From Skeletonema tropicum (Eukaryota > Bacillariophyta > Thalassiosirophyceae > Thalassiosirales > Thalassiosiraceae), in the NCBI GenBank assembly GCA_037178625.1, contig JAWZXG010000025.1, positions 186,001 to 250,000 of the forward strand: a DNA stretch of 64,000 bases, given 5' to 3'. Made by a program: the position numbers and the translations under genes. Shown piece by piece: positions 1-37,509 of this stretch (positions are counted from its first letter, which is position 1; every line of letters begins with the position of its first letter). The notes under the pieces are model-generated. The model searched no databases and was not told the DNA's origin. It saw only the letters and a list, made by a program, of their open reading frames with translations.

Positions 1-417
1 ACATTGGCTCAATTACATTATCTGCCGAGTCGTCTATTGATGCAAGTCTAAATAGACGCCGACGTTGGTTGCCGACGTGTTTGCATTTGAATAACTGCCG
101 ATCTTTGGCCACGTACTGATCAATACGTCAGTTCTTAACTCCACGTCGACGTCTTGTGTTGAGCTGAATCTTTTTGTCGACGTGTTGTCGATGTGTTGAA
201 CCACAAGATCTTGTGTTGCCGACGTAGCTTACGAAGGAACTCGTTTACTTCATGACGTGGTTGGTTATTGATTGCATTGTTCTCTGCTGATTATTGCGCT
301 GGTGCGTTGGCGACGGTTATGTAGGCAGTTTGTACGTTGTCGAGCCGTTCAACAGCTCTCATAAATTATGCATTGCATCATTTACATCATCACATTTCTA
401 CATTGTCCGAATAAATA
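1..417 (+). promoter_or_regulatory. Upstream region of the MBD gene in copy A
   Basis: Same sequence as 14937-15353 of copy B, with two or so substitutions. It is rich in CGACGT/ACGT cores, for example near 59-64, 74-79, 148-153 and 179-184, and in the repeated word GTCGACGTGTTG. No TATA box stands out; the MBD start codon is at 418. ACGT cores are typical bZIP-factor sites, but binding is only inferred. Confidence 0.45.
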
Positions 418-2092
418 ATGAAGTTTGGCAACACAAATCCAGTTATATCCACCGTTGGTAGTAATGGTAAGGGCTTCCGTGCCGTGCGGAATCGGAGCAA
501 TGTCGATGCACGTCTTACTTCGTCAGGGGTCAAGACTGCCGCTAAACCGTCGGCTCCTGTCATTGCATTGAGCGTAACAGACATCAATTGGCGTTTGGTG
601 CGTACCGACGATCGTATCTTCTCGCTGCTAGCGTCTGTTGCATTAGGCGATGGGTTTGACGTTGCCAAGTTGGAGAAGGAACAACTGCTCTTTTCTGCTC
701 TTTCCGTCTTTGAAGTCGGGTCAATCAAGTACATCCTGAATGAACTGTCTGAACATTACCCGAATGTCCCAGTTGGTAAGACTGATTCTACTGACAAAGA
801 TGATCTGGTGTCTGCAGCGGTCAACTTCTTAATGTTTGCCGCTATTGCTCAGAAAGGAGGTACAAGCCAAGCGCCGTACACTTCAAATTGTGAGCATTTT
901 TGGTAAGAGAGAAGGTTAACCTTCGTGTGGTTCAATGATTTTGGTATTTTTGTTCATTGTACCGTTTTACAAATTCTGTCTTTCCTTTTTACTTACAAGT
1001 TTTTTTTTCAACCTTCAACTTCACACCAGTGATGAGAACGGGAAACTTGTACTTGAAGACAAAACTCATTCGGGCTCCCGTGATCAACCTGTTCAAGATG
1101 ATGATGAACCGGATTTGTCCGAGAAAGGTGCTGTCACGAAAAAGTCTAAACCGGTACCTGTCCGAGAGAAGGCCTCTCCTGATTCAACTATCATGTGAGT
1201 TTATTTTGTGTGCATGTGCACTGCCGCACTAAGTATCGCTTGCTTATTGAATCATTTTAGTATAATCGATCACTGAACAATTTTACCTAATAAATAAATG
1301 CAACTGCCTTCTACATAGCGAGAATGAGTGGGTTGATTACACCCATTCAGATCTCTCGGATGGATGGAAAAGGAAGAGTATCAAGCGTAAGGGCGGCAAA
1401 TCCCGCGGAACTATTTACCACCATTACCTCTCCCCTGACAACAAAGTTTTCAAGAGTTTGACGCGAGCGAAGGCACATTCCTCTCCATCGAACGTCACTG
1501 AGACTGCTCCTCCCTCGTCTAAGTCGAATGGCAATCCTAATGACTTCGTTGATACTGTTGATTTGATTGCAAGAGGTGATATTGCTGATAGTGTACAACG
1601 ACTCAGGAAACTCGTTGTAAATGAGTATCAAGAAACTTTTTCTGTTACGGACGATGTTGACAATTTGGCAATGTCGAAATTAGCAAAGAAGATGCGATTG
1701 AAACAAATCATTACAGCTGGTGCGGATCATGTTCAGAGGCCGACCGGTGACAAGTTGGTACCGAGGAACACTTTTAGTATCCTCCACGCACTCGCTTGTG
1801 TAGTTGATAACGTGGCTCTCAACACAGAGGAGAAACTGCTGCCGTTCGTCGCTGATGTCATGTATATGGCTGCGAATGAACCCTTCTATCCTCGTATCAA
1901 AAGAGTGATGGACGAATTCATTTATGAATGCGAATACTCATACAACAAAGTACATCGCTCGATTGACTGGTATTTCACATTGCTCGATGTATTGAGCACA
2001 ATCATGTGTCTTGAAATTTGTGTGCTGCTGCCACCTGATGGATGCCATGGAGAAAGCGGTGAAACGAGGATTGTTTCCTTCGCTCCAGGCGG
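418..2092 (+). pseudogene. MBD-domain protein gene, 3' part deleted (copy A)
   Basis: Exons 418-902, 1030-1194 and 1319-2092, introns 903-1029 and 1195-1318, all GT...AG; splicing keeps the frame. Exon 3 starts just before the MBD-like domain, whose key residues are the GWKRK start, the R-x-GGKS-x-G turn and the HYLSP-x-x-K-x-F-K-S end. At 2092/2093 the sequence leaves the copy B version and enters helicase-gene sequence in another frame, so the MBD frame soon stops (2127-2129, or shortly after splicing of the next intron). The copy B gene at 15354-18343 is the intact reference. The residual product would keep the MBD and the first of two internal repeats. Confidence 0.8.
1261..1286. repeat. 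Near-palindrome in MBD intron 2
   Basis: TATAATCGATCACTGAACAA followed by TTTTAC: a degenerate copy of the family palindrome. It lies wholly within intron 2 of the MBD gene and is present in every HelA copy with that intron. Confidence 0.6.
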
Positions 2093-5000
2093 AGGAAACC
2101 TGCACTGTGCAAAGGTAAGTGTGCTCTGAAGATGAAAGTTGTCTCTCACACTGAATTCAGTGCAGTTGTGTATTCCGCCATCTTCTTTGGTAAAACTGTG
2201 CGGTGCACAATTTTGCAAATTGAAACAAAATCTTACGCTGGGTAACCTCACTGTATTCCGCCATCGACTTTGGTAAAACTGTGCAGTGCACAATTTTGCA
2301 AATTGAAACAATCGAACACTGTTAACCCCACTGCTAACACAACCTACCGCCACTATTAATTCTCACCTCCCAGCAAAAGCTCCGAGGATATAAGTGGTGT
2401 CCAAACATTGGTGAAAATGTCACTGAACTGGATGACAAGCAAAAGGCTCATCAGCATACAAGAGGCGGTGCACGAGATTGATAGGCTGAGTTTAACACTC
2501 TGTTCAGATGTGATCACTTACGTGTCGGTTCAGAATTGTCTGAAGCTACGAAAATCATCCGACCCTAAGCCAAACGACTTGGTCTATAGCTATGCAAGCA
2601 GGGAGGAAAAGTACAGCAAACTGACCTTGGATCAGTACTTTTACAAGGAGTGGTGTAGGAAAAAGTTCATGATAGACCCTGACAGCAATAGACGCATGAA
2701 CAGGATACTCATCGCCAAAGGACTCAATTGCAGACCACGTTACCCGGTGGACTACGATTATGCAAGAGGAATGTTGTTACTTCACAAGCCATGGAGCTTC
2801 GACAAACCACTTAATTTACGCGACAGACAGAGAACAATCAATACATTCAAGTTGATGCTGCAGAAAAGACAGGTCCCTACAAGTGTTTGGACCGAATACC
2901 AGAGAGCTGTTAGATACGCGCAAGAAAAAAGGATCGAATGTGTGGCAAGAAAAGGGACAATTCAAGCAGATGTCAACATTGACGAGCTCGACGATGACGA
3001 GGTAGATCAACACCTGAATCATTTGCACTCGACCCAACTCTCTGATAGGAAAGTGGATGAGTTACTTTTGGGGGGCAAGAAAATCGACGTAGGATTGAAT
3101 CACGATTGGTCGAAGAGCTCGTTTGATGGAGAAAGAGACGTAACAATACCAGGGGAGGAGTACACAGTCAAACTCAGAGAGCAACGTGCCAGAGCCATGA
3201 TGGACGATCATTCAGGCGCAACAATACCCACGAAATCTGACGGATCAAGTTACAACATCGAGGAACTGTCCGAGGAACAGGCGATGATCGTACTCGCCAC
3301 TGTCGATACTGTGGTGAAATTCCTTGATAATGACGAGGATTACAAGCCGCTACGAGCAACAATTACAGGAATGGGTGGGTGCGGGAAATCGCTGGTAATT
3401 AACACCATCATTTCCATCATCAGGAAGCTGACCGATTCGAACAAGACAGTCCAGGTTGCTGCTCCTTCAGGCAGCGCAGCGTACAACGTCAAAGGGTGCA
3501 CGCTGCACTCACTTCTGGGAATTAACGTACAGGTACCTTACAAATCATTGGACGCAAAAAGAAGAGAAGAAATGTGCAATAAACTGAAAGAGCTGCTCGT
3601 ACTGATGGTCGATGAAAGAAGCATGTTGGGCTCACACGTAACATTCGGTGCAGAGGAGCATGTGAGAGATTGCGCATTTAATGGGCACAATAAACGGGAG
3701 AGGTGGGGCGGTGTCCCGGTTGTGTTGTTCTTCGGTGACGACTACCAGCTGCCACCGTCCAACAAGGGGGGAGCAATAAACGGCTACCACGAATACCACA
3801 ACAACGATAGGCCAAAAACAATGACAGGAAAGAGTAAAAACAATCAAATATGCGATTACGAGGGTAGCAAAATCTTGACTGAGATGATGACGGATGTGGT
3901 CTTCATGTTGACGAAGAATTTTAGAGCAAAAGACAAGGAGGATAGCGATCTCATGAACAGGATGAGAGTGGGGAACCAGACTGATGAGGATGCAAAGCGC
4001 CTGATCAAACTACACATAGACGAACTCGGAAAATATCATCCAAAACTGAGGGAAGAGGTAGAAAATGACCCAAAGACGTTGTGGGTATACGCGAAACGGG
4101 ACGATATGTCCCAGAAAAATGTAGACATGCTGATCAAAACACACGAACGACTGAAAGTACCAATAGCTAGGCTCAGGTGTCAATTCAGCAGCAGGATGGC
4201 GGGCAATAACACAGCATACCAGTCGCACTTTTACGGCAGGAGGCTATTCTACACCTTTGATGTGTGCGTAGGTGCACATGTTTGCTTGGAGTCAGCCAAC
4301 ATCGATCCCAACTCAGGATTGTACGTCTCAGCTATTGGGGTAGTTGTCGAGATCGTTTACGATAAGGATCGCTCCGTTGGACCAAACGGTAAAGGTGAGG
4401 TTAGCCTACCGAAGTACATTGTTGTGGATTTCCCTACATACAAACCACCACCAGGCGAGGACCCATGGGACAAGAACAACCCAACGGTGAGTAAAAGTTG
4501 ACACACGAAAGACACAAGACAATTGCCACTCTCTGCGAAAACACTACTAACTCATTTCATACTGATACAAATGCATCCTACCCCAACTTATTGCGCACAG
4601 CACGTGCCAATCCCACCCTACGAGCAGATTTGCAACAGAGGATGCTGCACCGCATTATTCATGCCATTGCAAATTGCCTACGCCATCACCATCCACCGCT
4701 GTCAAGGACTCGAAGCTGGATTCGACAAAGGAGACCGCTGGAACCGCATGATAATAGATCCAGCAGATGAGTTGTGGGAGATTAGCAAGTTTCTTGGAAC
4801 AATGTACGTGGCTACCAGCAGAGGCAAAACACTTGGCTCCAAAGATCAAGCATACCCGTCGGACAGTGCCATATACTGGACCGGAAGCAACATTTCAACG
4901 AACCGATTAAAAAATTGCAAGAGAAAGCAAAATGGCCAGTTCTGCGAATCGTACAAGAAGCGAGCAAATTGGGTGAAATACTTGGAGGGGAAGGCAGAAG

Positions 5001-5212
5001 AGTCGAAGACAAGGTATAGCAAGAGAAAGTTGGAAGAAATCACAGAAACATCGTACGCAGCAGCAATCAAGGGCAATTTCATCAAAGACAGGACAGACCT
5101 GACAACCAGGATTACCAACATCATAACCAACCCGAACAAGAAGTGGAAAGAAGCGAAGAAGGATCATGAAATCCCAAGTGATTACTTCGCAGGATCTTCA
5201 TCTGGTGATTAG
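2093..5212 (+). CDS. PIF1-type helicase, N-terminal region missing
   Basis: Exons from about 2092-2114, then 2374-4486 and 4601-5212; introns 2115-2373 and 4487-4600 have GTAAGT/CAG and GTGAGT/CAG borders and preserve one frame. Visible motifs: an ISIQEAVHE segment near 2450 typical of the region before the helicase in Helitron proteins, Walker A GMGGCGKS near 3369-3392, a VDERSML Walker B-like motif near 3607, and the C-terminal AITIHRCQGLEAG and YVATSRGK motifs of PIF1 helicases. It would unwind DNA during rolling-circle transposition. An HUH Rep nuclease domain, expected upstream in Helitron proteins, is absent because the 5' end is fused by deletion to the MBD gene in a different frame. 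So it is partial and probably not expressed as such. Confidence 0.85.
2191..2299. repeat. Two near-palindromes in a duplicated 59-bp unit, helicase intron
   Basis: Two copies of TAAAACTGTGC-x-GTGCACAATTTTGCA (2191-2216 and 2274-2299) within a longer direct repeat (about 2169-2226 and 2252-2310, starting TGTATTCCGCCATC). Both lie inside the 259-bp intron 2115-2373. Confidence 0.75.
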
Positions 5213-5238
5213 TAAAATTGATCACTGCACAGTTTTAC
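5213..5238. repeat. Near-palindrome just after helicase stop
   Basis: TAAAATTGATCACTGCACAG then TTTTAC begins one base after the TAG stop. It would form a hairpin in the mRNA 3' end; a half-copy follows near 5337-5352. Possible role in 3' end formation is inference. Confidence 0.6.
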
Positions 5239-5253
5239 AAAACAGACACTTTC

Positions 5254-5732
5254 TCAACACAAAGAATACAACAACTCAATTAAGCGTCTGCATCTGGTGA
5301 TCAGTAAAACATCTGCAAGCGCACGATTCGATATATCAAGCACAGTTTTACAAAAAGACATTTTCTCGTGACGAAGAAAGACAAAAACTAAATCGACTAA
5401 CGCCCGTGTAAAACCTGTATTTCTTTCTCGTACAGACCGATTTAGATGCTCAAAAAGCGCATCTAGTACAGTCAATTTCTCGCTTTCAACAGGTACTTCT
5501 TGCTTTCTACATAGGAACACATACAGATCCTACGCCGGTAGTCTCTACCGAGGACTCTACGTGTCCCTAAAGTAAACCTTCTCACTAAAAAACACATGTA
5601 CTGATTCCTACCTATAACTCTGTAGAATAATGGGGGTGAAAAATAATGAATTTTCCCACCTGTAATAGAAGGGCACCTGCGGCCCCCTATTACGCTGCTC
5701 TGCACTCCATGAACGGGGGCCCCGAGGGCCGA
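5254..5732 (+). other. HelA right subterminal region and 3' terminus
   Basis: Conserved in all copies and partly in family G: a block around 5490-5565 containing CGGTAG-x3-CTACCG, then the hairpin at 5662-5693 (stem GTAATAG/CTATTAC), then the 13-bp repeat GGCCCCGAGGGCC, which itself folds (GGCCC-CGA-GGGCC), and the end GA. Overlapping short open frames on both strands exist (88 and up to 92 codons) but neither has convincing starts, and the + frame is broken by TGA here. I treat it as structural DNA. Confidence 0.65.
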
Positions 5733-6683
5733 CAAAGGTTTGCGGCCTGCATCTTCAAAGTCTCCATCAGGTCCTGAAAAGGGGACGCACACCTCCTCAA
5801 TACTATCATCTATGAAGCCAAAGACATTGTAAGGCAGTTGAGGTACTCCCGGAATAGTATATGGGTTGCCATTAGGATCAGTCCTCTGTCGGTCTTTCTG
5901 CATGTAGCGCTCAATGGCATCATGGAATCGTTGAAAATGAGGCACCCAACGCAAGAGTCCTACATGCCCTAAAATATCTGCGAATGTATTGTCCAAATAT
6001 ATAATCATCCAGCGATAGCCATGCGACCATCGAGCATAGTCACCGCCAAAGTAGTTGTCGATTATCTTTTCGTTTGACATACCAGTGGCACACTTAGTCA
6101 TGGTGAAGAGAAACAGCTCCTCCGGGTGAAATACATAGCAGTTCTCATTGTTGGTGCGGAGATTGATGTGTCCTGTACCTACTCGGATTTCACCATTGAA
6201 CTGGCTGAGGCGGAACCCTTGAAACAAATCATGAAGTTGCCCTTTGTCGAAGTGGGTCATCTTCAATGCCTCACGATCATTTTCTATTGTGGCAATTCGC
6301 AAATGTGTTCGCGGTCGATGTTGACGTGGTACGTCCAATTCATGTTGAGGAATATCAAATAAATGGTGATCCATCCAAAAGATACGAGGTATCTGTCCGG
6401 CATAAACCTGCATAGCACGTACAATAGCATTCAGATAATGCCCTATAGCCCGCCTTAGTTGCGGTTGATTGCCTACTGCATATTGAAGTGTTTGGCCCAG
6501 AATCTGAACCCGCAGCAATGTCATTGAAAACACCTGCAGACGATTCCACACCAAATGAAGTGTCCGTCGAAAGGAGACCATCCCAGAGTGTAGATGCATC
6601 CATCTGTCATTTTTATCAGCTTCCCGAAGTGGTCTGTGCCTTGCTGCACCTGTGGAACGACGAACAAAACGTTGTCGGGCCAT
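5733..6683 (-). pseudogene. Harbinger-type (DDE_Tnp_4-like) transposase, C-terminus lost
   Basis: Start chosen at ATG 6681-6683 (begins MARQRF); upstream in-frame codons lack an ATG. About 317 residues remain. A helix-turn-helix-like region (FTMTKCATGMSNEKIIDNYF) is followed by the first catalytic Asp region GFIDDS and the PFSGPDGDF motif typical of this family in algae. The protein would cut and paste its own transposon, but the second Asp and the Glu of the DDE triad lie beyond the break made by copy A at 5732, so it is dead. An open frame continues into HelA terminal DNA but is not transposase. Confidence 0.8.
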
Positions 6684-6904
6684 GGTACCTCTTGTGTCAT
6701 GTGATGTGAAAATGTTGTGAGATGTGAGTGATGACAAACACCACAGCTTTCATCGCCTTTTTGTCGCCTTTCCATCGCCTCCTCATCGCCCCAGCGACCG
6801 GCCCGGATAAAACCACCAGAACGCAAAAAAGCAGAACCAATGATCCGGCACCCATGACGTCACCAAACGACAGATCAGCGTGCAGCGTTCCGAACCAAAT
6901 AAAA
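5733..6904 (-). mobile_element. PIF/Harbinger-type DNA transposon fragment
   Basis: A truncated transposon whose transposase gene runs leftward and is cut by the right end of HelA copy A. Its upstream region (6684-6904) contains TGACGTCA at 6855-6862. On the right it abuts the RNase H region of the Ty3-type element at about 6904/6905; I see no clear terminal inverted repeat or target duplication, so the exact boundary is approximate. Confidence 0.6.
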
Positions 6905-8279: not shown

Positions 8280-8811
8280 TAAACAGGGGCGCGCAGAATG
8301 GTGCGATAGTAGTGGCGTGCAGCGGTGTATGTGGCGGGTTCAGCGCGGGCCCTCGGGGCCTGTAAAGTATTGTGTCGTCATCTTGCTCTGTTGGCCATTT
8401 GCCGTGTGGCTTGTCAGTAGTCTTTATACAACGGAATTCGGCTATAAAGTTGCTCTGCAATGACGTTGGCCTTAATTGGTATAATTGTGCTGTGCACAAT
8501 TTTACCAATTAGTCTCTTTACAATAGAATACGGCTATAAAGTTGCTCTGCAATGACGTTGTCTTTAATTGTGTTAGAATTGTGAAAATCATCTATCTGTC
8601 CATCGGCACTAGTATTTGTGTAGGGATTTGAGAGAAGATTGCAGTGCGCCTGATCAAATTATATATAATTGTGCTGTGCACACTTATACCAATTAGTACA
8701 TTGTCCGGCAGTCATTCGTCGTCTCAACTGTTTGTTTTCGGATCAGCTGTTTAGTTGCGCTTAGTGTTCACTGTTGTGCATCTCTTTCACTTTCAACTCA
8801 TCCACTCGATT
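8280..8811. other. HelA left terminus and subterminal repeats
   Basis: Terminal T-AAACAGG can pair with CCTGT just after the 13-bp repeat (8359-8363), placing the left repeat in a hairpin about 67 bp from the end. Two ~47-bp direct repeats (about 8421-8468 and 8514-8560) ending GCTCTGCAATGACGTTG flank a near-perfect 37-bp palindrome at 8474-8510 (arms AATTGGTATAATTGTGC). A weaker copy lies at 8665-8694. The stretch is also the 3' flank of the leftward 133-aa gene. No coding sequence. Confidence 0.7.
8474..8510. repeat. 37-bp near-perfect palindrome, left subterminal
   Basis: Arms AATTGGTATAATTGTGC and GCACAATTTTACCAATT around TGT, one mismatch in 17. Present in every HelA left end. Confidence 0.8.
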
Positions 8812-9213
8812 CTATCGTTTCAGTGCGAGTTTTTTATTCCCTCTTTTCCATGTTTGTGCCGGCATGTTATAGTTCACCTCTGTATATAGTATTGAGCCTG
8901 GTACCATAGTGTTCGTCCTGTCTGTCTCAGTTTGTCCCATCATTGCAGCATAATTGGTTCTATGTCTCCCCATATCTTTTATGTAGTCTGTTATGATGGA
9001 TTCAATTGTGTCCTTCTCTTGTTCTGTTTGTGCACCTCCCAAGATTCTATCTACTGCTAGTTTCGCTCTCTCTATGCTTCCCTCGCTCAGTTGCAGCAGT
9101 CTTGTTGCTATTCCAATTCCTCTGTCATTGTTTTGCAGCTTTAGTTGTTGCCGTAAACTTTCGACATCGTTTTTAAACGCGCTGTTTGATAGCTTAGTTG
9201 ATCGTTCCATCAT
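8812..9213 (-). CDS. Uncharacterised 133-aa helical protein of HelA
   Basis: ATG at 9211-9213, stop at 8812-8814. Polar, Glu/Gln/Lys-rich and predicted mostly helical by eye (segments around SLRQQLKLQNN and QEKDTIESIITDYIKDM); C-terminus basic. No catalytic motif seen. It is transcribed away from the 289-aa gene, with about 245 bp between starts forming a shared promoter, and its 3' flank holds two family palindromes before the left end of the element. Only copy B retains it. A structural or DNA-binding accessory role is possible but unproven. Confidence 0.55.
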   Translation of the reverse strand: MMERSTKLSNSAFKNDVESLRQQLKLQNNDRGIGIATRLLQLSEGSIERAKLAVDRILGGAQTEQEKDTIESIITDYIKDMGRHRTNYAAMMGQTETDRTNTMVPGSILYTEVNYNMPAQTWKRGNKKLALKR

Positions 9214-9457
9214 ATTCAGTGAGAGTATCGTAGTGAAATAACTTGCCCCAATTTGGTTCTCATCAGTGGTTTCTCAAGCGATTGTGTTTGTGGCTATTTT
9301 CTCGTAATTACATATTTCTTGTGTTCGTCGCCGAACTGATACACATGACCACAGATTCTTTTCTATTACACATAACTAAATACTCCATAACATAGACAGC
9401 TTTCAGCTGTCTCTCTCTAGACATCTCTCTTTGTTTTGTCGATGCTTCATCATTTCA
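9214..9457. promoter_or_regulatory. Divergent intergenic region between the 133-aa and 289-aa genes
   Basis: About 244 bp separating divergent start codons at 9213 (-) and 9458 (+). Pyrimidine-rich on the + strand near 9410-9440 (CTCTCTCT tracts). No palindrome of the intron/3' class. Inferred bidirectional promoter. Confidence 0.4.
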
Positions 9458-10327
9458 ATGGTGTATATTAGATCGAGGGACGTTCGTTCATCTCGTATCG
9501 TTGTGAATCGCCCTATACCAAGGACTAAGGTCTTGTCCTTGTTTGACAATTACAGTGCATCATTTTGTGAGTTGCATGCTTGTAGTAGTAGCTCTTGCAT
9601 ATCGGTTGATGTGTTGGACGAAACCATCGTCTCACAGTTGTTTGGTTCCGATCAACGCTCTCTTGCATCGTTTCGGCTTGTAGGCGGCGTTTTGCTTCGA
9701 TCGTCTTTGGCTGCTAAGCTGTTGAGCAAATGTGATGTTCTGTTCGACTTATCAATATGGTATTTTTGGGATTTGGTTGTGATGCAATCAGGGTGGTCGT
9801 TATTGGACGTCACAGAGCTCAACGCTTGTCTCGGCTGCGCCGATGTTCTTTATTTGGGGTTAGTTCGTTTTCTTCCATCCCAGCTGTGCAACCAACGATG
9901 TGTTTCAAGCCATTCCCCATGCACATCTTCTTTGTGCACTATTCGCTGCGAGAGACTGTTCTCTGTCGATGTAGCTTATGGATTGTGCTCCGACATCAGC
10001 TTGTTGCTTTCACGGAAAGCTCTTGTCATGAAATCCGTCGCTGGGCCAGACAATTTCTCTATTAGAGAACTGGGTCAACTCCAGTACCAATTAGATCTCC
10101 TGAATCGTATGATTGAATGCAGACGTCCCATTTCAGAGACTTTTATGTTTTGCATGGATATCAACGCCCTTTTGGTGTCCAAGCGTGGTTTGTTGGACCG
10201 CGATTTTGACGTGTTCAATTTGTCTCATATGTCAGAGCTTCTTGCTGACGAAGTCTTCAACAGCGTTCTTCTCAAGGTTTATTGTTTGAATTTCGAGCAG
10301 TTATCCGCTGATATTGTCGTGGACTAG
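9458..10327 (+). CDS. Uncharacterised 289-aa protein of HelA
   Basis: First ATG in the frame is at about 9458 (MVYIRSRDV); stop TAG at 10325-10327. Cys- and Ser-rich middle section, Leu-rich C-terminal third. No intron is needed and the frame is uninterrupted, which argues for selection. I do not recognise the family. A short stretch LLADEVFNSVLLKVY near the C-terminus recalls the substrate-side motif of Ulp1-like proteases, but no catalytic His-Asp-Cys series follows, so I do not assign it. It converges on the ParB-like gene, with a palindrome in the shared 3' region. Confidence 0.5.
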   Translation: MVYIRSRDVRSSRIVVNRPIPRTKVLSLFDNYSASFCELHACSSSSCISVDVLDETIVSQLFGSDQRSLASFRLVGGVLLRSSLAAKLLSKCDVLFDLSIWYFWDLVVMQSGWSLLDVTELNACLGCADVLYLGLVRFLPSQLCNQRCVSSHSPCTSSLCTIRCERLFSVDVAYGLCSDISLLLSRKALVMKSVAGPDNFSIRELGQLQYQLDLLNRMIECRRPISETFMFCMDINALLVSKRGLLDRDFDVFNLSHMSELLADEVFNSVLLKVYCLNFEQLSADIVVD

Positions 10328-10346
10328 TCTGATGTATCGTGTATCA

Positions 10347-10383
10347 ATTTCTATAATTGTGCATTGCACAGTTTTACTAATTG
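10347..10383. repeat. Palindrome between two convergent 3' ends
   Basis: AATTTCTATAATTGTGCATT followed by GCACAGTTTTACTAATT, 20 bp after the 289-aa gene stop and about 160 bp beyond the ParB-like gene stop on the other strand. Position suits a bidirectional terminator or 3'-end hairpin. Confidence 0.65.
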
Positions 10384-10543
10384 GGCGAAGTTCTTATGTT
10401 ATGGTTCTTAGTTTTGTTACTTTTTATGGCTGACCAATTGTCTCGTGTTTCATCAACCCTTTCCGTCGTTATAGCCTGTTGTTGGTCGTCGGTCAAGCTT
10501 TCGTTGTCTCTCCTTGTTATGCTCCCCATTCCCCTGTTGTTAG

Positions 10544-13500
10544 CTATTCTTCTGTCTCATTTGGTACCATCCACCTGTAATTTGCGTTGTTTGTTGTTCT
10601 CTTAGCGCCGTCGACTGATGGTTCTCCGTAGATGTAAATTGTGTTGTAAGGATCGACGACAGTGTCACCTTTCTTGCCGCTCACGTTGAACACTCTCTTA
10701 TATTCCTCTCCGTTTTTTCTGTGCAAAAAGACGATTGACTTGTTCATTTCCTTCACGATCTGCGTAATAGCTGTCTTCAAAGGTAAGCCAAACAAGTTCT
10801 TTGCCCACTTCTCAGCCATCTGTTGCTCCTTCGTAGTCAACCCAATACGTTTGTTCGTTTTGTGCTTTTTCTTCCTTCCTCTCCATTTCATGTTACTCCA
10901 CGCGAGGTTGATGACGTCAAAGAATCCAGTTTGGTCGTACTGTTTTCCTACCTCATATCCTTCTACTGCTTCGAATGTTGTTTCGGTTCTTGCCACGACA
11001 TCGTCACTTTCAATCATCTCATCTATATCAGCTTCTGCTTCTGGAAGTGTAGGGAACAATTCATCAATGATTGCTTTTGCAATGTTTGTCATTAATCCTT
11101 CTCCCAAGATATCTTTACCAACTTTATTCTGTGCTGCTTTCACGGCTCTAGCTCTCAATTCATCCTTGCTCTCTCGTCCGTGGAGTTCGTGCTGCGTCGT
11201 ATTGCCTGACTGTTGCGACACGATCGTTTTACTGGCACAATCATTGGTGCGTTGCTTTTTCGAATTTGTCTCCTCTGTATCAGTTGTTGATCCATTTTTG
11301 TCTTTACTTTGATGCTTCTCCGACTTCCTCTTCTTACTCTCCTTTCTTTTGCTTGGCTTTCCCTCCTTGGTAGCAGCAGGTTTCGTTGGAAGTGTGTACG
11401 TACGGATGAGCTTGCCCTTAAGTTGCGCAGTCCCTCTGATCAAGTCACCCAGCTGCGTTAGCGATAACAACGATCCTGTCATTTGAAAGTCACTCGGTGA
11501 TTCGATTCTAGATGTGACCGTTTCATTCCCAATCTTTAGAACCTTCATCAACTGACTTGATGTTTTCACTGAGTCGCTTGTCGTTTTGAATCGCTTGTCT
11601 TTTCCGAAGAAGAGGTCTTGGAGCTTTCTCGGATTGCCTCTCTCTTTCTCTGCGGATCGAACCACATTCCAACAAAAGATGTGGCAAATGAGCTCTACTA
11701 GTGTCATATCACCAGGAGCTGTTACGATGGTCATCACATCTCTACCCTTAGTCGGTATCTTGCTTTGTCTTTTGGTTGAACTTGCACCTGTCTCATTCGT
11801 CACTCTGACCGCCTCAATGACGTTACTTGCCAATTGCTCTTTATCGAGACGTGAAGTCTTGTCCTTGTCTTTCTTTCTTACCAAGAATTCTCTGATAGCT
11901 TCACCGACCAAATCCTGGTTGTCTTCTCTCAATAGGTCTTCACTAACTTGGATGTCTTCAGGGGTAGAAGCAATGAGTTGCATGTACTCGTGTAATAGAT
12001 TCATTGTCACCATGAAGTTTAGTGCCGCGATATTCACATCTCTCTCTGTGCCTTCATCTTCCTTCAGCGTCTTCAGGACAACTGCGATCTCTTTTGCTGC
12101 CATACTAATCAATCCGAAACTTTTCGCTTGATTTCAATGAATAGATACTTGTTAGTCAAGGTACAACGAGCACAAGTTTACGAATGAAATGATACCAAGC
12201 TTGTTCTTACCAATACTCAATCTCAAATCATTCGCCATATCTTTGGTTTGCGACATGATGCTGAAGGCATTTAAAGTTTGATCAAGCAAGGCATCTGCGT
12301 TGAACAGTTTGGCAGACTCGACTGTGTAGACCAACGCTGCAGTACTTGTCGCCATGATCCCTTCAACTGACCTGTCCCATAGTTTAGGCGTGTCATTGTA
12401 TTTTCCATCAGTATCATCCTTGGGTATCACAATCGTGTTCACTCCTGATCTTGGCATAATAATTCCGCCTGCCAACATTGCGCTTATCTGCTTTGAGGTA
12501 AATAGCTGCATTCCATCAGTTTCAAGCAATGACTGTACCGCTACCGCGAGTGGGAAAAATCTGGCCATGCTGTGCTCAACAGTCATCGGGTAGTTCCCTG
12601 TAGAACCGAAGTTGTCCATATTACACTTGACAGGCAATTTGAGTACATCATTTGGTCCTCCACCATCAACTCTGAGCTGCACTTCGTTTTGGCACGTCTC
12701 GTATTCACGCATTGGATTCTCGTAGTATTGAGTGAGCGGCTCTTCGGTGAAACTTGGGTCATCTTCAAACTCTTCAAGTGTCCTTGCCGTTCGCGCTCTC
12801 AGCCCCTTTATGGTCAAAACTTTACCTTTGCTGACTATCTTACCGTTAGTACCAACTTCCTTCTCAGTCCAATCCTCATGGTCTCTTCTCACAGAATTAT
12901 GCTTAGTTAAGCCTCTGTATATATTTAGTACTGTTGATCCAAGCTTCCTTTTGCTCACGTTCTTGCTTTTCTCGGCTAGAAGAGTTTCCGCGAGGTGAGG
13001 CGCGGGGAAAGATTCGGTAGCAGTCCTTGATGCTACTGTAATGTGAGCGTCGAAGGGGTGGCTCAATATTGCATCACTGTCCGATTTTTTCAATTTCTCA
13101 AGAGCATTCTCCATGGCGTCATGTTCGTTATCTTCAATTCCTACGAATGAATTGGTCAAGAACGTCGGATCTCCGGGATTGCTTGGCTTGAAGAAGTAGC
13201 CTGACTCTCTCTTCACTTTGCATCGCAGCAGAGCTGCCAATAATGCTATCAAGCGGTGGTTGCCTTCAACAGCTGTGACATAGAATTTCAATGAAGCAGT
13301 GAAGGAAGTGTAGAAATGACCAAATCCCTCGATACCATCTTGGACTGCCACATTGACTTCATTTTGACTTTCATCTAGCCAATGGTGCTTTCTTGCAGTG
13401 CTCAAAAGCTTTCGTTGACCTTCGACTGTTGTCACATTAGCAGTTAATGCCTCTGATATTTCTCTTTTCGTTTCATCTGTGCCACTACCATCATCTCCGT

Positions 13501-14487
13501 TGAGTACGTCGATTAAGTGTGATAGCTCTGGAACATACGTGAATGGCAATCCGTAAGCCACACTAGTCCTCGCTTCTTCACTGGATGCAATCAATGACAT
13601 ATGAGTTGCATTGACTGGTTCTGTCTTCTCCTGTTATTAATGTGGAGTAGCATCAATCAAGTGTTAGTTGTGAGTTCAGCAACGGATCTATAAATCAATA
13701 TTCGTATAATCGCACAGTGAGCAATTATACAAATCAAGTAGCATGATGTAGTTTGGCTGCAGCAATCGATCGACGAATCAATATTACCAAAATTGTACAG
13801 TGATCAAATTTACAAATTCGTTCTGTGCAACATCGCAATCGATCAACGAATCAACATTCCCAAATTTGTACAGTGATCAATTTTACAAAATGGTTCGTTG
13901 CGCAGATTCAACAAAAGTAAACTCACGCAATCTTCCGCGGAATCATCCTCCGCTGCTTTCTTGCTGAAGTGTAAGTGTATCTGACTGTCGTTCATTTCTT
14001 TGTTGTCGCCGGATTTACCCGTAGCCACCAGTTTCAATAGCCCGAGTATCTTCTCTTGCTGTGGTACCGCTTGATTTACATTCTCCGCTACCAATTTGCC
14101 TTCTTTATCCAAATGGGTGAAGCAAACGAAAACCGTAGCACTAATTTTTGTTGGCAGGCCCGTATTTGTGCCTTTGATGTAATGCTCAGGTCGATCTTCC
14201 TCGACTTGCTGCGTAGTCGTTTCTGTACCTGCTGTTGGTTTGTCAGGGGTGATAACGTTGTTGGTGGTTGGTCTGGTGACAGCCTCGGCAGTATGATCGG
14301 TAGGTGTGTTATTCTTTCCGGGGGTGTTCATCTGGTTGTCCGGCGGACTCGTTGTCTCCTTTAACGTGCTTTTTGCGTCCACAGCTTCAGCTGCAGATTC
14401 AACCGCAGATTCAGTTGCATCTGTAGCTTCAGGTGAGTTCATGGTGTCGTCGTTATCGTGTTCAGTTGGATGTTGTTTGTCGGTCAT
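10544..14487 (-). CDS. Three-exon 1187-aa protein with ParB-like GNHR motif
   Basis: Exons 14487-13927, 13630-12211 and 12126-10544; introns 13631-13926 (296 bp) and 12127-12210 (84 bp) start GTGAGT/GTAAG and end CAG/AAG. Joined length is 1188 codons and one frame throughout. N-terminus is Thr/Ala/Glu-rich and disordered-looking (to about residue 100). Near residue 309 the motif VEGNHRLIALL, preceded by GIEGFGH and a hydrophobic strand, resembles motif II of ParB/sulfiredoxin-fold proteins, which bind or hydrolyse nucleotides. A Lys/Arg-rich stretch (KRKESKKRKSEK) in exon 3 is a likely nuclear-localisation signal. Shares the promoter at 14488-15353 with the MBD gene. ParB assignment rests on one motif; the gene structure is firm. 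Confidence 0.7.
13704..13887. repeat. Three near-palindromes inside the first intron of the ParB-like gene
   Basis: At 13704-13730, 13787-13813 and 13861-13887, cores GCACAGTGAGC, GTACAGTGATC and GTACAGTGATC flanked by AATT/TTTAC arms. Spacing 83 and 74 bp; the neighbouring word ATCGA-CGAATCAA also repeats, so the intron grew by tandem duplication. Confidence 0.7.
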
Positions 14488-15353
14488 GATTTGGTGGAGC
14501 GCTGTTGCGTTTTATGCGAGATCTGTGCGGCGGATTCGTTGGGTGCGGTGCTTTGCTCTGAATTACTTCCGGAACTTAAACTTGAAGTGTTGGGATTTTC
14601 CCCCCTCCTATCCCCGCTGAAATGCCCATTTTGATTGTCATTTAGATGCTATATCTTATGATTTAGATCTAAAAATCGCTTGATTTGTGCTAGAAAGGAC
14701 TTTTCCAGGCTAATTAAGTCAGATTGTCGATGAGCTTCTTCGTTCTTTCCGGTGTGCATCCCCGTCACCATCTATTTTCTTCATTTTTTCTCTGAGTGAC
14801 GTGGTAAACTTCGTTACTTAAGGAATTAGTACACTTGATTCCAATCGTCTTACGTCACAAAGTACCAGAAGTCAGGTGTTGGCAAAATCCAATGAACAAA
14901 AAAGTATTTAAGTTCATGCAGCAAGTACTCAGGTCGACATTGGCTCAATTACATTATCTGCCGAGTCGTCTATTGATGCAAGTCTAAATAGACGCCGACG
15001 TTGGTTGCCGACGTGTTTGCATTTGAATAACTGCCGATCTTTGGCCACGTACTGATCAATACGTCAGTTCTTAACTCCACGTCGACGTCTTGTGTTGAGC
15101 TGAATCTTTTTGTCGACGTGTTGTCGATGTGTTGAACCACAAGATCTTGTGTTGCCGACGTAGCTTACGAAGGAACTCGTTTACTTCATGACGTGGTTGG
15201 TTATTGATTGCATTGTTCTCTGCTGATTATTGAGCTGGTGCGTTGGCGGCGGTTATGTAGGCAGTTTGTACGTTGTCGAGCCGTTCAACAGCTCTCATAA
15301 ATTATGCATTGCATCATTTACATCATCACATTTCTACATTGTCCGAATAAATA
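14488..15353. promoter_or_regulatory. Divergent promoter region between the ParB-like and MBD genes
   Basis: 866 bp with no open frame I trust. The MBD-side half holds a cluster of CGACGT/ACGT cores (about 14996-15190) including GTCGACGT twice and TGACGTGG. Retained in all deletion derivatives, implying that the promoter is tolerated or needed. No palindrome of the intron/3' class. A perfect GATTTAGATCTAAAAATC-type short inverted repeat lies near 14660-14680. Confidence 0.5.
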
Positions 15354-18343
15354 ATGAAGTTTGGCAACACAAATCCAGTTATATCCACCGTTGGTAGTAA
15401 TGGTAAGGGCTTCCGTGCCGTGCGGAATCGGAGCAATGTCGATGCACGTCTTACTTCGTCAGGGGTCAAGACTGCCGCTAAACCGTCGGCTCCTGTCATT
15501 GCATTGAGCGTAACAGACATCAATTGGCGTTTGGTGCGTACCGACGATCGTATCTTCTCGCTGCTAGCGTCTGTTGCATTAGGCGATGGGTTTGACGTTG
15601 CCAAGTTGGAGAAGGAACAACTGCTCTTTTCTGCTCTTTCCGTCTTTGAAGTCGGGTCAATCAAGTACATCCTGAATGAACTGTCTGAACATTACCCGAA
15701 TGTCCCAGTTGGTAAGACTGATTCTACTGACAAAGATGATCTGGTGTCTGCAGCGGTCAACTTCTTAATGTTTGCCGCTATTGCTCAGAAAGGAGGTACA
15801 AGCCAAGCGCCGTACACTTCAAATTGTGAGCATTTTTGGTAAGAGAGAAGGTTAACCTTCGTGTGGTTCAATGATTTTGGTATTTTTGTTCATTGTACCG
15901 TTTTACAAATTCTGTCTTTCCTTTTTACTTACAAGTTTTTTTTTCAACCTTCAACTTCACACCAGTGATGAGAACGGGAAACTTGTACTTGAAGACAAAA
16001 CTCATTCGGGCTCCCGTGATCAACCTGTTCAAGATGATGATGAACCGGATTTGTCCGAGAAAGGTGCTGTCACGAAAAAGTCTAAACCGGTACCTGTCCG
16101 AGAGAAGGCCTCTCCTGATTCAACTATCATGTGAGTTTATTTTGTGTGCATGTGCACTGCCGCACTAAGTATCGCTTGCTTATTGAATCATTTTAGTATA
16201 ATCGATCACTGAACAATTTTACCTAATAAATAAATGCAACTGCCTTCTACATAGCGAGAATGAGTGGGTTGATTACACCCATTCAGATCTCTCGGATGGA
16301 TGGAAAAGGAAGAGTATCAAGCGTAAGGGCGGCAAATCCCGCGGAACTATTTACCACCATTACCTCTCCCCTGACAACAAAGTTTTCAAGAGTTTGACGC
16401 GAGCGAAGGCACATTCCTCTCCATCGAACGTCACTGAGACTGCTCCTCCCTCGTCTAAGTCGAATGGCAATCCTAATGACTTCGTTGATACTGTTGATTT
16501 GATTGCAAGAGGTGATATTGCTGATAGTGTACAACGACTCAGGAAACTCGTTGTAAATGAGTATCAAGAAACTTTTTCTGTTACGGACGATGTTGACAAT
16601 TTGGCAATGTCGAAATTAGCAAAGAAGATGCGATTGAAACAAATCATTACAGCTGGTGCGGATCATGTTCAGAGGCCGACCGGTGACAAGTTGGTACCGA
16701 GGAACACTTTTAGTATCCTCCACGCACTCGCTTGTGTAGTTGATAACGTGGCTCTCAACACAGAGGAGAAACTGCTGCCGTTCGTCGCTGATGTCATGTA
16801 TATGGCTGCGAATGAACCCTTCTATCCTCGTATCAAAAGAGTGATGGACGAATTCATTTATGAATGCGAATACTCATACAACAAAGTACATCGCTCGATT
16901 GACTGGTATTTCACATTGCTCGATGTATTGAGCACAATCATGTGTCTTGAAATTTGTGTGCTGCTGCCACCTGATGGATGCCATGGAGAAAGCGGTGAAA
17001 CGAGGATTGTTTCCTTCGCTCCAGGCGGGCTAAAGTGCCCAAGAAAAGTCTATTTCAGGCTACTCATTGACCGCACTATTACTGATTGTCGCCTCGGTGA
17101 TGGTGGTGACAATGTTGCTGGTGTGTCCGTTTATATCGAGAGGGATTTGGATTTGACCACTTCCGATGATGATGGTCTAGATGGTCATGACGATGATGAT
17201 CAATTCGATGATATCAGTGGTACTGACGAGCAATCAAAGCAAAATAATTCATCGGACCGCAGCAGTGATGAAATTGATGTTGTGAGGGATGATGGCTTTG
17301 TATCATCAGTATTCCAGCTGTTGAAGGAGACAAATAATTGGAATGAGTTGGAAGTGTCTGACCCAGGTGATAAGTTCGGCCTACCTTCATCAATTGCAAG
17401 AAGTTTACTTGCCTTTTTTCAAGAGACGAACCATCCGATGCAATGTTTTACTTACGAGTTATTCTTGAAATGGTGTGCTAGTCAGTTGGATGACTTTTGT
17501 AATAACGAGGTCTACGCTGAAGGCAGCAAAAAAGTTGTCGCAGAGTGGTTGAAAGAAGAGACTCATTTTAAGAGATCGCTCGCTCATTCAATTGATTGGT
17601 ACAAATCTCTGTTGAGCGCAATCTGTGTGCGTTGCCAAGTTAGAGTGGCGATTGCAATACCCCCTCACAAAGACTGGTCTGCGAAAAGTTTTACAGTCAT
17701 TAATTTACCTGATTGGGGGGCAAACAACATGACGGGTGTGGCGATTGATGACAGAAATCTTGTGTTTCGTCTACTTTATCAAGATCATGATTCAGGTAAC
17801 GATTGCATTGTTGGGGTCTCTGCGTTTCGTGTAAGCAAAGTTCAACCTGTGCAGAATCCGTATAAGAAACTGAGTGGTAGTCTTACCGCTGAGCAGAAGC
17901 GGGGTTCTATCCAGTTGACCAAAGCTACAAGCGAAGTAATTGAAGAAGTCAGTGATGCTAGTACTGCTAGGTCTCTTTTTACCACTCCTGTGAGGAAGAA
18001 GGTGGTTGGGAAGCCCACATCCTTGCTCGACCATGGTTCTCAACCGTGTAAACGCAGCATTGAAGACAGGTTAGCTCAAGAAAAAGCTGCTCTGTTGAAA
18101 AGGATCAAATTGTTGGAAAAGGGGAAGAGCAATGTTGTATCGTCTCCTGCAACTTCTTCGTCGATGGTTACTGCTGAAGAAGTGAAAGGTGAGTTCAAGT
18201 CGGGCGGTTCTACAAGCTTGACTGGTATGGAGGTATTGGGGAGCGAGAGTACTATAGGTGATCATAGTCACAATGGCGGTGGCGGTGGCGGTGGAGCATG
18301 GCAAAACGTGGATATTTCTTCTGTCACGACTGGTACATCATGA
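15354..18343 (+). CDS. MBD-domain protein, 912 aa, three exons
   Basis: Exons 15354-15838, 15966-16130, 16255-18343; introns of 127 and 124 bp, GT-AG, frame-preserving. Residues about 221-266 match the methyl-CpG-binding domain pattern: GW-x-RK, RKGGKS-x-G, HYLSP, K-x-F-K-S. Downstream are two diverged copies of one domain (roughly residues 293-500 and 565-720), each ending SIDWY-x-x-LL then a hydrophobic strand and PP. An acidic Asp-rich linker lies between them. Near residue 820 a charged helix (RLAQEKAALLKRIKLLEKGK) looks like a coiled coil; a short Gly run follows. The last codons may be altered by the deletion joining helicase sequence at about 18338. Likely nuclear DNA or chromatin reader; methyl-DNA binding is inferred. 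Confidence 0.82.
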
Positions 18344-18804
18344 TAATAGATCCAGCAGATGAGTTGTGGGAGATTAGCAAGTTTCTTGGAACAATGTACG
18401 TGGCTACCAGCAGAGGCAAAACACTTGGCTCCAAAGATCAAGCATACCCGTCGGACAGTGCCATATACTGGACCGGAAGCAACATTTCAACGAACCGATT
18501 AAAAAATTGCAAGAGAAAGCAAAATGGCCAGTTCTGCGAATCGTACAAGAAGCGAGCAAATTGGGTGAAATACTTGGAGGGGAAGGCAGAAGAGTCGAAG
18601 ACAAGGTATAGCAAGAGAAAGTTGGAAGAAATCACAGAAACATCGTACGCAGCAGCAATCAAGGGCAATTTCATCAAAGACAGGACAGACCTGACAACCA
18701 GGATTACCAACATCATAACCAACCCGAACAAGAAGTGGAAAGAAGCGAAGAAGGATCATGAAATCCCAAGTGATTACTTCGCAGGATCTTCATCTGGTGA
18801 TTAG
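18344..18804 (+). pseudogene. Helicase C-terminal remnant (copy B)
   Basis: Equivalent to 4755-5212 of copy A: from MIIDPADELWEISKF through YVATSRGK to the TAG stop. The rest of the helicase, including the ATPase core, was removed by a deletion joined to the end of the MBD gene. Not functional. Confidence 0.85.
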
Positions 18805-19324
18805 TAAAATTGATCACTGCACAGTTTTACAAAACAGACACTTTCTCAACACAAAGAATACAACAACTCAATTAAGCGTCTGCATCTGGTGATCAGTAAA
18901 ACATCTGCAAGCGCACGATTCGATATATCAAGCACAGTTTTACAAAAAGACATTTTCTCGTGACGAAGAAAGACAAAAACTAAATCGACTAACGCCCGTG
19001 TAAAACCTGTATTTCTTTCTCGTACAGACCGATTTAGATGCTCAAAAAGCGCATCTAGTACAGTCAATTTCTCGCTTTCAACAGGTACTTCTTGCTTTCT
19101 ACATAGGAACACATACAGATCCTACGCCGGTAGTCTCTACCGAGGACTCTACGTGTCCCTAAAGTAAACCTTCTCACTAAAAAACACATGTACTGATTCC
19201 TACCTATAACTCTGTAGAATAATGGGGGTGAAAAATAATGAATTTTCCCACCTGTAATAGAAGGGCACCTGCGGCCCCCTATTACGCTGCTCTGCACTCC
19301 ATGAACGGGGGCCCCGAGGGCCGA

Positions 19325-32941: not shown

Positions 32942-35900
32942 TTAAACAGGGGCGCGCAGAATGGTGCGATAGTGGTGGCGTGCAGCGGTGTATGTGGCGG
33001 GTTCAGCGCGGGCCCTCGGGGCCTGTAAAGTATTGTGTCGTCATCTTGCTGTTGGCCATTTGCTGTGTGGCTTGTCAGTAGTCTTTATACAACGGAATTC
33101 GGCTATAAAGTTGCTCTGCAATGACGTTGGCCTTAATTGGTATAATTGTGCTGTGCACAATTTTACCAATTAGTCTCTTTACAATAGAATACGGCTATAA
33201 AGTTGCTCTGCAATGACGTTGTCAATCTTTATCAATGTGAAAAGAAATGTCTTGAATGCAATAAGCCACGAAGTCCTTATTACAAGCTAGGAGTTTTTCC
33301 AGATGATGGTATTAAGCAATATAACCGAACTCTTTATGATTCATTAATTACGAGTTTCGGTGGAGCTTAGCCACCTTCATCAGCGGTTCTTATTGCGTGG
33401 AGACAGGCCACAAAAAATTTGAATCAAAAGGTCTCAAGAATGAGAAAAGGCGTGGTAGCTGTCATTGTTCTAACGGTCGTAAGTTTTGTTGGCGTTTCGT
33501 GGGCGTGGGCCAGCGTACAAGGCATATCTTTTCCATCGGGGAGATCCAAAGTAGCGAGCAAATTACTTCCGGAACTTCAACTTGAAGTGTTGGGATTTTC
33601 CCCCCTCCTATCCCCGCTGAAATGCCCATTTTGATTGTCATTTAGATGCTATATCTTATGATTTAGATCTAAAAATCGCTTGATTTGTGCTAAAAAGGAC
33701 TTTTCCAGGCTAATTAAGTCAGAATGTCGATGAGCTTCTTCGTTCTTTCCGGTGTGCATCCCCGTCACCCTCTATTTTCTTAATTTTTTCTCTGAGTGAC
33801 GTGGTAAACTTCGTTACTTAAGGAATTAGTACACTTGATTCCAATCGTCTTACGTCACAAAGTACCAGAAGTCAGGTGTTGGCAAAATCCAATGAACAAA
33901 AAAGTATTTAAGTTCATGCAGCAAGTACTCAGGTCGACATTGGCTCAATTACATTATCTGCCGAGTCGTCTATTGATGCAAGTCTAAATAGACGCCGACG
34001 TTGGTTGCCGACGTGTTTGCATTTGAATAACTGCCGATCTTTGGCCACGTACTGATCAATACGTCAGTTCTTAACTCCACGTCGACGTCTTGTGTTGAGC
34101 TGAATCTTTTTGTCGACGTGTTGTCGATGTGTTGAACCACAAGATCTTGTGTTGCCGACGTAGCTTACGAAGGAACTCGTTTACTTCATGACGTGGTTGG
34201 TTATTGATTGCATTGTTCTCTGCTGATTATTGCGCTGGTGCGTTGGCGGCGGTTATGTAGGCAGTTTGTACGTTGTCGAGCCGTTCAACAGCTCTCATAA
34301 ATTATGCATTGCATCATTTACATCATCACATTTCTACATTGTCCGAATAAATAATGAAGTTTGGCAACACAAATCCAGTTATATCCACCGTTGGTAGTAA
34401 TGGTAAGGGCTTCCGTGCCGTGCGGAATCGGAGCAATGTCGATGCACGTCTTACTTCGTCAGGGGTCAAGACTGCCGCTAAACCGTCGGCTCCTGTCATT
34501 GCATTGAGCGTAACAGACATCAATTGGCGTTTGGTGCGTACCGACGATCGTATCTTCTTGCTGCTAGCGTCTGTTGCATTAGGCGATGGGTTTGACGTTG
34601 CCAAGTTGGAGAAGGAACAACTGCTCTTTTCTGCTCTTTCCGTCTTTGAAGTCGGGTCAATCAAGTACATCCTGAATGAACTGTCTGAACATTACCCGAA
34701 TGTCCCAGTTGGTAAGACTGATTCTACTGACAAAGATGATCTGGTGTCTGCAGCGGTCAACTTCTTAATGTTTGCCGCTATTGCTCAGAAAGGAGGTACA
34801 AGCCAAGCGCCGTACACTTCAAATTGTGAGCATTTTTGGTAAGAGAGAAGGTTAACCTTCGTGTGGTTCAATGATTTTGGTATTTTTGTTCATTGTACCG
34901 TTTTACAAATTCTGTCTTTCCTTTTTACTTACAAGTTTTTTTTTCAACCTTCAACTTCACACCAGTGATGAGAACGGGAAACTTGTACTTGAAGACAAAA
35001 CTCATTCGGGCTCCCGTGATCAACCTGTTCAAGATGATGATGAACCGGATTTGTCCGAGAAAGGTGCTGTCACGAAAAAGTCTAAACCGGTACCTGTCGG
35101 AGAGAAGGCCTCTCCTGATTCAACTATCATGTGAGTTTATTTTGTGTGCATGTGCACTGCCGCACTAAGTATCGCTTGCTTATTGAATCATTTTAGTATA
35201 ATCGATCACTGAACAATTTTACCTAATAAACAAATGCAACTGCCTACGTAGACATGCTGATCAAAACACACGAACGACTGAAAGTACCAATAGCTAGGCT
35301 CAGGTGTCAATTCAGCAGCAGGATGGCGGGCAATAACACAGCATACCAGTCGCACTTTTACGGCAGGAGGCTATTCTACACCTTTGATGTGTGCGTAGGT
35401 GCACATGTTTGCTTGGAGTCAGCCAACATCGATCCCAACTCAGGATTGTACGTCTCAGCTATTGGGGTAGTAGTCGAGATCGTTTACGATAAGGATCGCT
35501 CCGTTGGACCAAACGGTAAAGGTGAGGTTAGCCTACCGAAGTACATTGTTGTGGATTTCCCTACATACATACCACCACCAGGCGAGGACCCATGGGACAA
35601 GAACAACCCAACGGTGAGTAAAAGTTGACACACGAAAGACACAAGACAATTGCCACTCTCTGCGAAAACACTACTAACTCATTTCATACTGATACAAATG
35701 CATCCTACCCCAACTTATTGCGCACAGGACGTGCCAATCCCACCCTACGAGCAGATTTGCAACAGGGGATGCTGCACCGCATTATTCATGCCATTGCAAA
35801 TTGCCTACGCCATCACCATCCACCGCTGTCAAGGACTCGAAGCTGGATTCGACAAAGGAGACCATCGTTGTGGGAGATTAGCAAGTTTCTTGGAACAATG

Positions 35901-36830: not shown

Positions 36831-37009
36831 TGAAATGTCGTCATGTCAAAACTAATCACTTATCCTTACTTATCCCTATTTTCATTTACTTCAGCAATGG
36901 CGGTGTGAAAAGACAGCGGGCAACAAAAAAGATGTTTGTCGACAACAACAAGAACGAGCATGATATACCTCTTCTGCAGACAAAGCAAGGCGATTGCATC
37001 TCTCCCGCT

Positions 37010-37509
37010 NNNNNNNNNNNNNNNNNNNNNNNNNNNNNNNNNNNNNNNNNNNNNNNNNNNNNNNNNNNNNNNNNNNNNNNNNNNNNNNNNNNNNNNNNNN
37101 NNNNNNNNNNNNNNNNNNNNNNNNNNNNNNNNNNNNNNNNNNNNNNNNNNNNNNNNNNNNNNNNNNNNNNNNNNNNNNNNNNNNNNNNNNNNNNNNNNNN
37201 NNNNNNNNNNNNNNNNNNNNNNNNNNNNNNNNNNNNNNNNNNNNNNNNNNNNNNNNNNNNNNNNNNNNNNNNNNNNNNNNNNNNNNNNNNNNNNNNNNNN
37301 NNNNNNNNNNNNNNNNNNNNNNNNNNNNNNNNNNNNNNNNNNNNNNNNNNNNNNNNNNNNNNNNNNNNNNNNNNNNNNNNNNNNNNNNNNNNNNNNNNNN
37401 NNNNNNNNNNNNNNNNNNNNNNNNNNNNNNNNNNNNNNNNNNNNNNNNNNNNNNNNNNNNNNNNNNNNNNNNNNNNNNNNNNNNNNNNNNNNNNNNNNNN
37501 NNNNNNNNN
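37010..37509. other. Assembly gap of exactly 500 N
   Basis: Round-number N run. Sequence on both sides is a noisy near-copy of clean sequence elsewhere in the window (36831-37009 versus 42632-42811; 37510-38744 versus about 31772-32941). Confidence 0.99.

Follow-up and report, generated by a model that had tools for sequence, protein, structure and literature searches.

We report here that ORF1, a three-exon gene at positions 15354 to 18343 of the DNA under study, encodes a protein with a domain that has the methyl-CpG-binding domain (MBD) fold, as judged from sequence profiles and structure models. Comparison of gene sequences shows ORF1 to be a standing component of a Helitron (rolling-circle transposon) lineage, kept in three diverged families of the diatom Skeletonema tropicum. 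The window is the whole stretch analysed, 64,000 nucleotides of contig JAWZXG010000025.1 (positions 186,001 to 250,000), and coordinates without a locus name refer to it. The window copy that carries ORF1, hereafter copy B, is a non-autonomous deletion derivative of a Helitron of about 20 kb.

Profile and fold evidence for an MBD in ORF1

The candidate domain lies at 16259..16426 on the plus strand (residues 1-56 of the exon-3 model, 219-274 of the spliced protein). A first-pass annotation, made from the sequence alone, had read a series of MBD motifs at the start of exon 3, and GWKRK, RKGGKSRG, HYLSP and KVFKS indeed occur there in that order. With the Pfam MBD model (PF01429) the exon-3 frame alone scores 15.4 bits (E 0.015) and a 67-aa piece of it 20.4 bits (E 4.1e-4), both under the curated cut-off of 21 bits, as is the 13.7 bits of family 2. 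Among ten relatives, eight match this model at E<=0.1 and five match DUF7028 as well. A profile built from the relatives and compared with PDB chains gave 24 matches at E<=1, every one an MBD protein (best E 3.7e-5), the reversed-sequence control gave none, and profile-profile comparison by hhalign yielded E 1.8e-8. The AlphaFold model of the region is confident (pLDDT 88-93), and the first 35 Foldseek matches to it are all MBDs, the TAM domain of BAZ2A following at ranks 37 and 44. Profile similarity above background and the predicted fold, beta strands and then a helix, together place the domain in the MBD fold superfamily, so the MBD-like domain first proposed by eye has come through both the profile search and the structure comparison.

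Methyl-CpG contact positions in the element MBD

We take R166, R188, D176 and Y178 of MBD2 to be the positions that contact or support methyl-CpG. Ten element sequences were aligned at these positions; the alignment omits P0002, which matches L068, and P0001, P0006 and P0007, in which the MBD is absent or cut. The first arginine finger is retained in all ten, Asp is replaced by Tyr in all ten, Tyr gives way to His (five) or Lys (five), and the second Arg to Lys (five) or Asn (five). The combination of two arginine fingers, Asp and Tyr that marks classical methyl-CpG readers is therefore not found in the element MBD, whose own invariant residues are R22, K23, G25, G29, Y32, S45, L46, A49 and K50.

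Nine host loci exceed the Pfam MBD cut-off and, from coordinates compared by eye, all of them lie 100 kb or more from any Rep match. In the eight for which contacts were counted (all but C4:1268938) the first Arg is retained in eight, the second in seven, Asp in six and Tyr in three; because only three of eight have Tyr, its loss is shared with host MBDs. In the host genome (78.4 Mb in 125 contigs) the DNA methylase family PF00145 is matched 12 times, which means several DNMT genes. Nine silicon-transporter matches, six of which cover nearly the full length (best E 2.7e-245), mark the host as a diatom.

Decay of CpG was uninformative as a methylation footprint: the observed/expected CpG ratio of the element is 0.91, with no depletion, and the copies are too young for this ratio to be a test of methylation. 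The eight window copies differ from the column majority by 28 substitutions, four of which fall on the 162 CpG positions, two of these being C>T or G>A.

The first-pass annotation had suggested recognition of 5-methylcytosine. A methylation reader of this kind, binding 5-methylcytosine and thereby steering insertion into methylated elements or their anti-silencing, draws on the MBD fold, the first arginine finger kept in 10/10 sequences, the several host DNMT genes and an MBD2 chain that bears Lys at the second finger position and was crystallised with DNA (7mwk). Against this, Asp and Tyr are changed in 10/10 sequences and the second arginine is K or N in 10/10, the host MBDs, unlike the element, mostly retain the arginines and Asp, and the insertion targets show no sign of being methylated. 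We consider this reading unlikely; with three of four contact positions changed in every element sequence, methyl-CpG reading by the ORF1 MBD is possible but so far unsupported.

Gene structure and conservation of ORF1

ORF1 reads on the plus strand. Exon 1 (15354..15838) opens with ATG and the start MKFG.TN, common to both sister families; exon 2 (15966..16130) is bounded by GT..AG introns at matching places and with equal phases in families 2 and 3; and exon 3 (16255..18343) is truncated in the window copy. Spliced at GT..AG junctions, the three exons yield 912 codons and a stop in frame, in agreement with the joining first read. The sister family represented by L068 (72% identity) likewise splits the gene into three exons at equivalent splice sites, and in that represented by L071 (33% identity), which also starts with MKFG, the exon phases equal those of the window even though exons 1 and 2 measure 530 and 114 nt there against 485 and 165 nt here. 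Since both share a three-exon, same-phase structure, the comparison provides strong evidence for the splicing model.

A genome search with the family-1 protein, in which 64 of 89 candidates were scored, placed the exon-3 protein at no fewer than 73 sites, 13 of which cover the full 694 residues at 99-100%. The exon-3 frame reaches 965 aa in eight of these 13 full-length matches and only 713 aa in the window copy, a truncated frame found at three genome places including this one. In public assemblies we found ten homologous proteins, 81-28% identical to the window protein; measured against family 2, identities go as low as 52%. The ORF1 profile matched nothing related in viral contigs, and NCBIfam returned nothing useful.

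Between L069 and L068 the uncorrected ratio of nonsynonymous to synonymous differences (pN/pS) is 0.48 for the whole ORF and 0.16 for the MBD (residues 229-268; Fisher p 0.012 versus the rest). An earlier, corrected estimate for residues 228-272, window copy versus L068, was dN/dS 0.08; the pN/pS of 0.16 is that obtained with L069, a copy that carries one extra change in the domain. In a sliding-window control, 103 of 934 ORF1 windows were constrained as strongly as the MBD, so we do not claim that it is the most constrained part of the protein.

These data bear on whether ORF1 is a passenger, a functionless piece of a host MBD gene picked up by the element. Capture of gene fragments is common among Helitrons according to passages of PMC6431247, and MBD genes do exist in this host; the gene, its exon phases and its position are nevertheless equal in diverged families, purifying selection acts on it, and relatives occur in other assemblies. 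On the strength of this conservation we reject a passenger fragment and regard that origin as highly improbable. Less credible still is a chance resemblance to MBDs, which the sub-threshold single-sequence Pfam score would allow but which the profile, profile-profile, fold and reversed-sequence results all contradict, the empty control and the fold matches together ruling it out.

The OTU-like domain

Downstream of the MBD, exon-3 model residues 96-299 (16544..17155, plus strand) resemble the fold of OTU deubiquitinases, with the catalytic Cys position apparently occupied by Thr. The presumed catalytic helix, placed by its motif, starts with Thr in all 14 aligned ORF1 sequences. The OTU-like domain is probably non-catalytic. 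An insert of family-1 ORF1 at about 17290-17840, absent in L068, L071 and P0002-P0010, resembles a second, degenerate OTU-like copy (SIDWYKSLLSAICVRCQVRVAIAIPP versus SIDWYFTLLDVLSTIMCLEICVLLPP).

Full-length relatives and Rep lineages

In the full copy on contig C3 (L069+L070), ORF1, with an exon-3 frame of 965 aa, is followed by a Peptidase_C48 gene, a DUF6570 exon, a Helitron_like_N Rep and a Pif1 helicase. The Ulp1-type C48 gene (L069:4941-6700, E 4.6e-10) is apparently split by an intron and lies between ORF1 and Rep; family 2 has it as well (L071:3343-5117, minus strand), and copy B lacks it. The family-2 copy L071 presents ORF1, C48, DUF6570 and Rep in an order identical to that of the C3 copy. 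As read from gene order, ORF1 is thus shown to precede an Ulp1-type protease and Rep-helicase in the two families whose neighbours were read. The L069/L070 Rep carries HLH and YVVAYASKK motifs (PF14214, 78.6 bits; PIF1, E 7.3e-17), and the full copies accordingly possess the HUH Rep with two tyrosines and the Pif1-type helicase that define Helitrons. Pfam scans of the element frames gave no RPA/OB match, and the matches of L070:2577-3287 include no endonuclease family, a C-terminal apurinic/apyrimidinic (AP) endonuclease on the helicase being the mark of Helentrons. The C3 copy spans about 25.4 kb, and its left side has some 5.5 kb more than that of copy B; an uninterrupted element, assembled from the C11 left part and the C3 right part, would be about 19.8 kb long.

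The PF14214 matches of the genome (67, of which C3:3871073-3871369, the second frame fragment from a copy already in the list, was excluded) fall into two classes, class I being the Rep lineage of this element and class II another. Of the 38 class-I matches (>=40 bits), at least 28 are preceded on their own strand by ORF1, 4.9-5.6 kb upstream; among the 28 of class II (<40 bits) none is, with the proviso that a family-1 query could miss a very distant ORF1. The Pfam MBD model does not list element copies, so its silence near class II is uninformative. Class-II open frames extend up to 2388 aa.

Copy B: extent, parts and termini

Self-comparison and reading of the junctions set the limits of copy B at 8280..19324 (plus strand, 11,045 bp), inserted A^T in the gag-pol of a minus-strand retrotransposon. 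The rolling-circle transposon of the first-pass annotation is of Helitron type as stated, its extent being 8280-19324 and not the gene at 15354..18343 alone. The retrotransposon on the left flank is recognised by Pfam from its reverse transcriptase (RT, E 4e-24) and its RNase H. Genome-wide, the left end falls at the same place within 8 nt in 38 of 40 scored matches (254 candidates); the remaining two come from window copies with the retrotransposon flank in common.

The left-terminal region (8280..8562, plus strand) is common to short and long copies and holds the inner inverted repeat GGCCCTCGGGGCC 69-81 nt from the end. It is followed by a divergent gene on the minus strand (10544..14487; open frames 10544-12133, 12152-13633 and 13843-14487, about 1,240 codons) in which no Pfam family exceeded its cut-off. 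This gene is conserved in all three families, its 493-aa frame at 51-52% and 35-38% in the sister families, where it likewise lies upstream of the MBD gene on the opposite strand. Beyond ORF1, 18330..18804 (plus strand) is the C-terminal part of a helicase, left by internal deletion and matching copy A and L070:2577-3287. Copy B lacks a Rep domain; its ORF1 frame is fused to this helicase C-terminus and ends at 18343. The right terminus, GGCCCCGAGGGCCGA (19310..19324, plus strand), contains an inverted copy of 8348-8360 and may form a GGCCC-CGA-GGGCC hairpin.

The ends appear Helitron2-like in sequence. Canonical Helitron1 ends (5'-TC and 3'-CTRR in ORF orientation) are replaced by T(T)AAACAGGGG and GGGCCGA, and insertion occurs between A and T without target duplication, as in Helitron1. 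The left flank is A in 8/8 cases, counting an optional first T as element, and the right flank T in 8/10 and C in 2/10, one of these ten right ends belonging to a diverged element and several ends not being independent. A Helitron2-type asymmetric terminal inverted repeat is present (13/13 nt, lying 68 nt inside one terminus and 2 nt inside the opposite one), with a score reached by one of 300 shuffles; the insertion site is A^T or A^C instead of the TTTT^T/C of Helitron2. The sequence allows GGCCC stems with loops of 3 nt, and such a stem is predicted for the left region; at the right end the minimum-energy structure is not the GGCCC-CGA-GGGCC hairpin but another, longer stem. Folding energies of the ends are not below those of shuffles.

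Other copies in the window

Copy A (1..5732, plus strand), whose left part lies outside the window, contains ORF1 to 2092, a Pif1-type helicase frame at 2360-4501 that reads as L070:435-2576 (PIF1), and then the helicase C-terminus. On its right flank, a 425-aa open frame (5472-6749, minus strand) has no Pfam match; by eye it may resemble a DDE-type nuclease. What remains in the short window copies is the leftmost 283 bp or so, 14561-16245 and the helicase end; the MBD exon is missing. Three of them, at 32943, 38746 and 42892 (32943-46784), are nearly identical and the first two share a left flank, suggesting local duplication; the sequence contains a run of N near 37000.

The copies at 8280 and 63515 share one site in the retrotransposon pol (RT and RNase H by Pfam). 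This pairing of a long (8280) and a short (63515) copy at one position of two pol copies may have come about by duplication and then internal deletion or conversion, or by repeated use of the site. The copy running from 58049 to 50197 is inserted in a frame taken for the gag of the same kind of retrotransposon, and itself hosts, on the opposite strand, the copy at 50982-54911; such nested insertions show no target duplication. The gag and protease frames and the copy A flank matched no Pfam family over cut-off; the putative gag and protease are named from their order beside the RT frame and from motifs. Of the at least six insertions into mobile elements first counted, three sites were read (retrotransposon pol, putative gag and the element's own copy), so that the count is partly checked. 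The nested repeats of the region can explain insertion into other elements, which shows no preference for methylation.

Proposed function

The reading we favour, and to which we give an even chance of being right overall, is that ORF1 of this diatom rolling-circle lineage is a tether uniting an MBD and an OTU-like domain, without classical methyl-CpG reading, that interferes with host control or loads partners. Tethering to DNA is its likely part. The MBD would be a DNA-binding module that has lost the classical reading of symmetric methyl-CpG and would hold an OTU-like, probably non-catalytic domain on DNA or chromatin. The OTU-like domain and the adjoining Ulp1 protease point to ubiquitin/SUMO pathways: the ORF1 protein and the protease might interfere with ubiquitin/SUMO-dependent host control, or load partners, and the element would thereby replicate and escape silencing. 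A bolder version, which we consider less likely than not, is that in a giant diatom Helitron lineage an MBD-OTU protein, a SUMO-type protease and the divergent partner form a dedicated module for interaction with chromatin, with which the element reads modified or silenced chromatin and strips or blocks ubiquitin/SUMO-dependent silencing, in analogy to VANC and of independent origin.

A conserved MBD-OTU transposon gene makes the encounter of rolling-circle elements with host chromatin open to test in diatoms. In this group young elements tend to be overexpressed where DNMT5a is lost, a correlation given in passages of PMC9998398.

Comparison with known systems

That an MBD lies outside the usual Rep-helicase set of Helitrons, as first remarked, holds for what is here a genuine MBD-fold protein in a Helitron-type element. 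Among the open-licence papers listed in our searches, Repbase reports being outside this scope, no title or abstract opening describes a Helitron-encoded MBD, and no Helitron-encoded Ulp1 appears in passages of PMC2836005, PMC13317346 and PMC5240378.

With Helitron2/FoHeli, in passages of PMC5148889, the element shares a Rep-helicase with HUH and two tyrosines and an asymmetric inverted repeat; viewed from its right end it has a 5'-TC, a possible hairpin and a reversed Rep-helicase, as do some Helitron2-like elements described there. It differs in its size (about 20 kb), its four or more genes and its A^T insertion as opposed to TTTT^T/C. RPA, OTU, tegument-type deubiquitinase and endonuclease domains have been described in Helitrons (passages of PMC6431247 and PMC9741609). 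Those passages also treat Helentrons with OTU and tegument-type (VTD) deubiquitinase domains, which are likewise rolling-circle elements with an OTU-fold domain; here the OTU-like fold, apparently devoid of the catalytic Cys/His, resides in a separate, MBD-bearing protein, and no AP endonuclease is among the Pfam matches of the scanned frames.

VANC and KIU of the Arabidopsis Vandal Mutator-like elements (MULEs), anti-silencing proteins and a model for escape from methylation in passages of PMC13317346, resemble ORF1 as transposon accessory genes with DNA recognition and association with an Ulp1 domain. They belong to another transposon class, the likeness is one of description, and it is by this analogy that we infer a counter-silencing role for ORF1.

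Compared with MBD1, MBD2 and MBD3, finally, the element MBD is 27-32% identical over 52-55 residues at 1.9-2.6 A and has in common with them the fold, the W, the RK..G...G..Y...SP.g..f.S pattern and the first arginine finger. It differs in residing in a transposon protein and in the replacement of the Asp, Tyr and second Arg contacts, changes that offer a natural way to tell the MBD residues required to bind DNA from those required to recognise methylation.
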